A stretch of 64,000 nucleotides of DNA, from contig CACZCK010000004.1 in assembly GCA_902779675.1 (NCBI GenBank), positions 1 to 64,000 of the forward strand. Reading direction: 5' to 3'. The translations under genes and the position numbers were made by a program. The DNA comes from an uncultured Coriobacteriaceae bacterium (GTDB taxonomy: Bacteria; Actinomycetota; Coriobacteriia; Coriobacteriales; Atopobiaceae). Positions 3,993 through 42,162 of the stretch are shown one piece after another (the first letter of the stretch is position 1; the number at the start of each line of letters is the position of its first letter). The notes beneath the pieces are model-generated. The model had not been told where the DNA came from and did no database searches. It was given only the letters and a program-made list of their open reading frames with translations.

Positions 3993-4001
3993 GACCTGGG
4001 T

Positions 4002-4173
4002 GCTAGAGGCAGGGCCATCCCACCGCAGAGAGCCCTCGCGCCAAGAGCGCTCGTTGGACTGGGACAGCAGCTGCGGAACCGCTCGCTTCGCTCGCTACGT
4101 CCTCGCTCTCGCTGTCCCAGTCCAACGAGCGGCACTTCGCAGCTCTCTGCGGTGGGATGGCCCTGCCTCTAGC
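4002..4173. repeat. Long hairpin element, copy 1, with shared 42-bp core
   Basis: A nested inverted repeat. Outer arms 4002-4033 and 4142-4173 are perfectly complementary over 32 bp. Inner arms 4048-4068 and 4111-4131 are perfect over 21 bp. The core 4067-4108 is identical over 42 bp, in reverse complement, to 42049-42090. The arms are not shared with that second copy. The core has its own small palindromic part (CGCTCGCTTCGCTCG). The element fills nearly the whole gap between two convergent genes, starting 9 bp after the stop at 3992 and ending 11 bp before the stop at 4185. There is no T-run at either edge, so it does not look like an ordinary intrinsic terminator. Confidence 0.9.
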
Positions 4174-4184
4174 TCCCGTTCCTC

Positions 4185-8520: not shown

Positions 8521-9327
8521 CTAGTCGACGGACTGCACGTACTTGGCGACGATCTCGTCGTAGGTGCCGTTGTCCTTGAGGTTGGCCAGGCCAGCGTCAA
8601 ACATGGAGAGCAGCTCGGCGTTGGCACCCTTGTTGACGGCGAAGCCATACGGGGTGGCAAACTCGCTGTCGGCATCGGCCTCGGCGATGAGCTCGAGGTC
8701 GACGTTGCCGGTGGAGATGGCATAGCTCATGACCGGGGTGTCCTCGAAGCAGCAGGCGGTGTTGCCGGCAGCCACGTCCTGGTACATGACATCGGAGGTG
8801 TCGAAGGTCACGGTAGTGAAGCCGTACTCCTGGGCGAGGCTGTTAGCCCAGGCCTCGCTCATGGTGCCGGTCTTGACGGCCACGGTCTTGCCGTTGAGGT
8901 CGTCGAGCGACTTGATGTCGCCACCGGTCTTGGCGGCGGCGCACACGGTGGAGTCGAAGTAGGGCTCGGAGAAGTCAAAGACCTCGCGACGCTCGTCGGT
9001 GATGGACATGCCGGCGATGACGCCATCGGCCTGGGAGGCCTGCACGGCCTGCAGGGCGGCGTCGAAGCCCAGCGGCTGGAGCTCGTACTCGAAACCCTGG
9101 TCGGCGGCGACGGCGGCCAGCAGCTCGATGTCGATGCCCACGTAGGTGCCATCGGTGTCCTGGTACTCGAAGGGAGCGAAGGTGGTGTCGGTGGCGATCT
9201 TGTAGACGACGGCGCTGTCGGCCGCCTCGTCGGTGTTGGAGCCTCCGCAAGCGGCGAGGGCAAGCGACGCGATGCTGCCGAGACCGAGCGTGAGGGCCTG
9301 GCGACGGTCGAGCATGAGATTGTTCAT
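8521..9327 (-). CDS. Amino acid ABC transporter substrate-binding lipoprotein
   Basis: A 268-aa family 3 solute-binding protein. The N terminus is a lipoprotein signal with lipobox LALAACGGS, so it is lipid-anchored on the outer face of the membrane. The mature part shows the type II periplasmic fold (YKIATDTTFAPFEYQD; GFDAALQAVQASQADGVIAGM; FSEPYF; YGFAVNKG). I chose the ATG at 9327 after GAGAGGAG. It is the first gene of the three-gene importer operon. Confidence 0.94.
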   Translation of the reverse strand: MNNLMLDRRQALTLGLGSIASLALAACGGSNTDEAADSAVVYKIATDTTFAPFEYQDTDGTYVGIDIELLAAVAADQGFEYELQPLGFDAALQAVQASQADGVIAGMSITDERREVFDFSEPYFDSTVCAAAKTGGDIKSLDDLNGKTVAVKTGTMSEAWANSLAQEYGFTTVTFDTSDVMYQDVAAGNTACCFEDTPVMSYAISTGNVDLELIAEADADSEFATPYGFAVNKGANAELLSMFDAGLANLKDNGTYDEIVAKYVQSVD

Positions 9328-41884: not shown

Positions 41885-41977
41885 GCGGCCTCCCCTCACC
41901 GCCGGCGGCAAGGCCGCAACACGAACGTCCGTTCTATACTAGCACACATTGCGATAGTAATCTTTGTAGCAATAAGA

Positions 41978-42162
41978 TCCCGCTGGGTCACTACGCGGAG
42001 ACTTGCGCCTACCGACCTCTCGGGCTGCCCGTCGCGTCGGCACGGCGGGAGCGAGGACGTAGCGAGCGAAGCGAGCGGTTCCGCAGCTGCCGCGTCGTAA
42101 GCGTCGGGCGTTCAGCCCGAGCGCGAGGTATGCGCAAGTCTCCGCGCAGTGACCCGGCGGGA
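41978..42162. repeat. Long hairpin element, copy 2, with shared 42-bp core
   Basis: Outer arms 41978-42008 and 42132-42162 are complementary over 31 bp with two mismatches, one of which is a G-T wobble on each strand. An inner pair 42020-42027 / 42113-42120 adds 8 bp. The core 42049-42090 is identical over 42 bp to the reverse complement of 4067-4108, while the arms are unrelated to those at 4002-4173. The element begins 4 bp after the stop of the NadE-like gene and lies about 94 bp upstream of ruvC. Relative to the upstream gene it has the same orientation as copy 1. No T-run is present. Confidence 0.88.

Follow-up and report, generated by a model that had tools for sequence, protein, structure and literature searches.

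Several described kinds of bacterial sequence come close to the hairpins reported here. REP sequences and REPINs, with their RAYT transposases (PMC3116915, PMC3733652), are dispersed intergenic palindromes that form hairpins. The conserved part of such a hairpin lies at its foot, where it carries a GTAG/CGTC tag, and the variable part, with compensatory changes, forms stems of 5-13 bp; REP sequences also occur as doublets. MITEs of the DDE type are short, non-coding and intergenic, present or absent between relatives, and marked by conserved terminal inverted repeats, a target-site duplication and a parent transposase. In the attC sites of integrons, which lie in cassette arrays, go together with an integron integrase and have conserved end motifs (R'/R''), structure is conserved beyond sequence, the stems are variable and one strand may fold. 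A mutation process has also been described at scattered, mostly short repeats, namely template switching or quasipalindrome correction. This process makes the two arms of an inverted repeat alike and can turn the spacer round (PMC8604942); direct double changes produced in the same way give rise to hairpin stems and keep them paired (PMC8794818).

The window, a stretch of 64,000 nucleotides from an uncultured Coriobacteriaceae bacterium, contains two copies of an element that comes nearest to the dispersed palindromes of bacteria (REP/REPIN, MITE). Like REPINs, it is scattered between genes and combines a conserved part with a variable part that has compensatory changes, and its betaproteobacterial relatives, like REP doublets, are often arranged as inverted pairs about 240 bp apart. 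Unlike in REPINs, the conserved sequence is found at the apex and in internal loops, the stems measure tens of base pairs, the foot tag is missing, as is any conserved base or terminal motif at the ends of 58 copies, and the window genome has no RAYT. With MITEs the element shares its short length, intergenic position, lack of coding capacity and presence or absence between relatives. It differs from them in having no target-site duplication (flank similarity did not exceed that of re-paired flanks at k = 3-9), no parent transposase in searches for Y1_Tnp and RVT_1, and no conserved terminal inverted repeats, its outer arms being at random identity within a genome. It resembles attC sites in the features of structure named above, but has no conserved ends, carries its conserved sequence near the apex and lies outside cassette arrays. 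Neither the core sequence nor repeats of this kind turned up in the literature searched, and no name was found there for the betaproteobacterial elements. In the window and in ten betaproteobacterial and viral loci, no Rfam family reached its gathering score, and at E values up to 10 the scores stayed at chance level. We regard the hairpins as a previously undescribed family of short dispersed DNA elements in some rumen Coriobacteriia and in Betaproteobacteria.

Table 1. The two copies of the element in the window and their surroundings
Feature	Start	End	Strand	Remark
Copy 1, left outer arm	3998	4033	.	private to locus; 36 nt, 97% complementary to 4142-4177
Copy 1, left inner arm	4048	4068	.	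21 nt, 100% complementary to 4111-4131
Copy 1, conserved core GCAGCTGCGGAACCGCTCGCTTCGCTCGCTACGTCCTCGCTC	4067	4108	+	reverse complement identical to 42049-42090; conserved in 77 aligned copies
Copy 1, right inner arm	4111	4131	.	partner of 4048-4068
Copy 1, right outer arm	4142	4177	.	partner of 3998-4033
Copy 2, left arm	41978	42027	.	50 nt, 86% complementary to 42113-42162; outer ~31 bp private
Copy 2, conserved core	42049	42090	-	42 bp identical to copy 1 core
Copy 2, right arm	42113	42162	.	partner of 41978-42027
AT-rich 30-bp stretch adjoining copy 2	41948	41977	.	missing from relatives' empty sites too
37-kDa nucleoid-associated protein family (NA37, PF04245) gene	2901	3992	+	ends 9 nt before copy 1
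DUF2804 (PF10974) gene, convergent	4185	5282	-	ends 7 nt after copy 1
CN_hydrolase + NAD_synthase gene	42167	43939	-	stop 4 nt from copy 2
ruvC	41249	41911	-	downstream of copy 2 in minus direction

An earlier note on this DNA had placed the two hairpins at 4002-4173 and 41978-42162, and both exist; the first span is the perfect 32-bp part of the 36-nt arms of copy 1, and in copy 2 the outer ~31 bp of the 50-nt arms pair near perfectly. The 42-bp centre described in the note is identical at 42 of 42 positions, as reverse complements, so the two cores lie on opposite strands (Table 1). Its statement that the arms are locus-specific also stands: the outer arms of copy 1 show no relation to those of copy 2, neither pair resembles anything in the remaining genome, and the left outer arm of copy 1 has no second match there. 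The inner part of the left arm of copy 2, by comparison, is common to several copies in the same genome (92-95% similar at C18:22145, C6:39584 and C6:69610). Folded as single-stranded DNA, both copies are far more stable than their dinucleotide shuffles (z = -13.2 for copy 1 and -7.6 for copy 2), none of 200 shuffles being as good in either case. The NA37 and DUF2804 genes converge on copy 1, which fills the space between them. In the minus direction, copy 2 begins just past the CN_hydrolase/NAD_synthase stop and ahead of ruvC, and the distance of less than 10 bp from a stop codon given in the note thus proves to be 9 nt for copy 1 and 4 nt for copy 2. As the note also said, a T-run of the kind that marks an intrinsic terminator follows neither hairpin.

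The core is part of a repeated family. At least 13 copies are present in the window assembly (2.9 Mb, 99.7% complete) and 97 in eleven Coriobacteriia genomes; copy-rich genomes hold 18-22 copies each. The genomes analysed are mostly MAGs, one per species, and several MAG contigs (L038, L274, L239 and L275) terminate at or near hairpins, so the assemblies probably under-count the family. The earlier note had reserved a chance origin, or one from decayed intrinsic terminators, for a core found just twice or for arms without covariation; neither is the case here. The position behind stop codons would suit such an origin, but the fold stability, the missing T-runs, the proper terminators that already precede several copies and a core conserved in 97 copies make it hardly credible, and the common core contradicts it outright.

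In a collection of 84,980 species the gapped core pattern was found in 38 stretches, all from Coriobacteriia MAGs except three from Methylotenera; where a source was named, it was rumen or gut. The Methylotenera stretches carry the same motif, and in two of the three a long hairpin clearly has it in its loop. A general form of the motif, GCGGAACTC-N(4-28)-CTCARACAGTCCTCGC, has matches in 53 of 399 genomes from Burkholderiales, the order of Methylotenera, where the reversed control had none; in one genus it is present in 26 of 40 genomes, and in a wider class sample in 4 of 185. This form is scarce in Coriobacteriia (2 of 248 sampled genomes). Searches of plasmids, phages and E. coli with the betaproteobacterial consensus, made with very short queries and without a positive control, gave no matches. 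A single viral contig has the motif (IMGVR_UViG_2829208299_000001 of IMG/VR, at about 9043-9081; locus L126), and the sequence there may belong to the host, next to the end of a prophage.

The hairpin is built from the apex down of an apical stem, an internal loop, variable inner stems and long outer arms. The apex motif reads CAGCTGCGGA-ac(tc)-[variable stem]-(ctcaraca)-GTCCTCGCT, in which CAGCTGCGGA and GTCCTCGCT are the two strands of the internal loop and are nearly invariant in the 77 aligned copies. The apical stem between them is variable and is paired in most lineages (GCCGCC/GGCGGC, GGGCCC, GCCCGC/GCGGGC and others). Outer arms of well-scored copies are 97.3% complementary, with 69 mismatches in 2,535 pairs. 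Between copies within a genome they are only 0.34-0.37 identical, against 0.35-0.36 after shuffling, and the cores are 0.91-0.98 identical. The arms do share a weak composition pattern, with a G-rich middle and a C-rich outer end, which suggests diverged homologues rather than unrelated inserts.

If the arms are private to each copy, then where did they come from? The element-free sites of relatives bear on this question. At locus 1 the element is missing from six relatives of the same genus, in which the two genes are 21-40 bp (five relatives) or 116 bp (one relative) apart. At locus 2, seven relatives have 8-9 bp between the CACA(C) on the ruvC side and the stop codon. In the window, the corresponding interval is made up of 30 bp and the 185-bp hairpin; the 30 bp are the AT-rich stretch at 41948-41977, which may have replaced an upstream portion of the ruvC promoter. 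Since these sites contain no arms, each hairpin was gained as a whole, arms included, and the arms belong to the element and do not derive from a duplication of the target. Relative to sister species, both window copies are insertions. The earlier note had considered a mobile unit that copies itself with flanking inversion. Its mobile part fits the presence and absence between species; the inversion finds no support in empty sites that are mostly spacers of 8-40 bp without a single arm, or in arms that occur nowhere else in their own genomes. A related proposal, that each insertion duplicates about 30-45 bp of local DNA inversely around the core, would explain why arms are private and nearly perfect and why their length is fairly constant within a species (most copies in genome G003 extend 76-78 nt from the core). 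We consider it highly improbable, and the empty sites already contradict it: neither arm is present in them, the arms have no other match in their own genomes or in seven genomes of the same genus, and in one MAG (G049) arms are common to unrelated loci. The lack of any source in the same genomes also speaks against arms copied as pieces from elsewhere in the genome. Arms as phage-derived spacers were likewise rejected, a sample of 14 arms having no match in 50,697 phage records, among which rumen phages are poorly represented.

The way in which the arms change also bears on their origin. In the alignment of 77 sequences there are 179 cells with a double change, against 44.6 after shuffling, and 7 with a change on a single side; the covariation score is 0.279 against 0.078 shuffled, and pairing reaches 90.6% against 26-46% in the slid control. 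Covariation is well above both controls, and the compensatory changes that the earlier note had proposed to look for do occur. The arms of L046, L060 and L226, three copies that occupy unrelated places in G049, can be aligned with one another; they differ in 8-12 columns changed on both arms with pairing retained, against 3-7 changed on one arm. L046 has a 12-bp stretch in both of its arms that is missing from both arms of the other two. Two contigs of another MAG (G045) bear copies with a common flank (L038 and L274, whose flanks agree at 48 of 48 bp in the stretch matched by BLAST), and their arms differ by nine double changes and a symmetric 2-bp indel with zero one-arm changes; they could belong to two strains or to a tandem duplicate. 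At several orthologous intergenic sites the element is present in different species with unrelated arms, and at some the core is flipped (L080 relative to L007 and L043, L029 relative to L085, L030 and L223 relative to L056); such copies could in part be independent insertions. Arms and stems therefore change on both sides together, multi-base indels included, while the loops stay constant. Elsewhere in the family, a single element has been tandemly duplicated at a distance of 201 bp (L250, G046:C91:24171 and 24372), and one right arm there is apparently decayed.

Copying of DNA from one arm to the other is indicated as the source of complementarity by the scarcity of single-side intermediates and by the 12-bp indel that affects both arms. 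Arm homogenisation, spacer inversion and direct double changes, the three published signatures of template switching, are all present as patterns in the family, from which we infer that the arms drift as a unit by mutual copying. During replication the hairpin arms would template each other, a change in one arm would be copied into the other, and the spacer would sometimes be inverted; the arm sequence could then drift freely as a unit and become private to each copy. The core and internal loops would be held constant because some factor, a transposase-like or structural protein, recognises them. Positions behind stop codons and in convergent gaps would be tolerated sites rather than a sign of a role in termination, and the spread of the element would require some mobilising activity. 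Template switching would here act on a dispersed family with a conserved core, whereas the described cases are scattered repeats. We favour this account, a non-autonomous dispersed palindrome with arms kept identical by template switching and a core recognised by a factor, and give it about an even chance of being right. Against it stand the shared composition of the arms, which pure drift does not predict, and an excess of A.C over G.T in the inner stems, which would fit folding of one strand.

Mobility itself is suggested by presence and absence between species and by homologous arms at unrelated loci. These observations, the hints of one-strand folding and the analogy to REPIN/RAYT and IS200/IS605 (PMC3116915) would also agree with a transposon of single-strand type, in which a host or element enzyme excises one strand folded as a hairpin and the first arm serves as template for the second, so that perfect arms are remade at each jump. 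We find this distinctly unlikely. Y1_Tnp (PF01797) is missing from the near-complete window genome (G000, 99.7% complete) and from copy-rich G010, G046 and G049, but is present in several copy-free relatives, and the reverse transcriptase RVT_1 is missing from copy-rich G003, G010, G009, G043 and G045. Target-site duplication and terminal motif are also lacking, and arms differ even at the same locus with nearly identical flanks. A further idea, unlikely in our judgement, is that a dedicated enzyme reads the apex motif and either actively renews or rewrites the arms of the stem or mobilises the hairpin in the form of a single folded strand, re-synthesising an arm; the element would then be a mobile hairpin with arms as copy-specific sequences, served by the same system in Coriobacteriia and Betaproteobacteria.

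Can the hairpin be a structured RNA instead? Under such a reading, transcription reads through into the element, the hairpin stabilises or ends the transcript, pairing is under compensatory selection and the loops bind a protein. By crude gene calls, 14 of 40 classifiable sites are convergent, 24 tandem and 2 divergent, and most elements have a stop codon no more than ~30 nt from the start of an arm; this strong 3' bias and the constant internal loops with covarying stems do resemble an RNA family. However, the core does not follow transcription. The note had reported the same core orientation relative to the upstream gene, which is true of both window copies but not of the family, where 13 tandem contexts have the core in sense and 11 in antisense orientation and where it is flipped at some orthologous sites. 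Selection on RNA pairing would predict more G-U than A-C on the transcribed strand. On the transcript strand the outer arms have 10 GU against 8 AC, and on the core strand 28 GT against 20 AC, with no clear strand-specific wobble. Hints of it come from the inner stems, where A.C exceeds G.T on the core strand by 31 to 10 in raw counts, an excess that falls to 18 against 10 in independent genome-by-column cells and is not significant (p = 0.18), and from the apical stem, where the count is inflated by loop bases. One-strand folding of the inner part is possible. The near lack of single-side (GU) intermediates among the changes counted above and the absence of an Rfam family also speak against an RNA. 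Some copies (L010, L030 and L056) are located behind a T-run terminator, so termination is not the general role of the element. We consider a 3'-end RNA rather doubtful, and the selection on RNA shape suggested in the earlier note is supported by neither wobble asymmetry nor orientation to transcription.

If arm-to-arm copying is right, the family offers natural multi-copy evidence that bacterial inverted-repeat arms evolve as a unit by mutual copying, and covariation, usually taken as proof of a functional RNA, would then be possible without an RNA function. It also raises the question by which protein, common to both Coriobacteriia and Betaproteobacteria, the CAGCTGCGGA...GTCCTCGCT apex is recognised.

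The betaproteobacterial pairs mentioned above stand tail to tail, sometimes with a small ORF in between. Inverted hairpin pairs were seen in Burkholderiales at L104, L108, L112, L115, L127, L128 and L135, some of them around small ORFs (139-221 aa), an arrangement that resembles a cargo cassette. Other ORFs traverse the betaproteobacterial copies themselves (L112 at 1346-1654, L132 at 549-897 and similar cases); their translations are alike, and they may be annotated as spurious hypothetical proteins.
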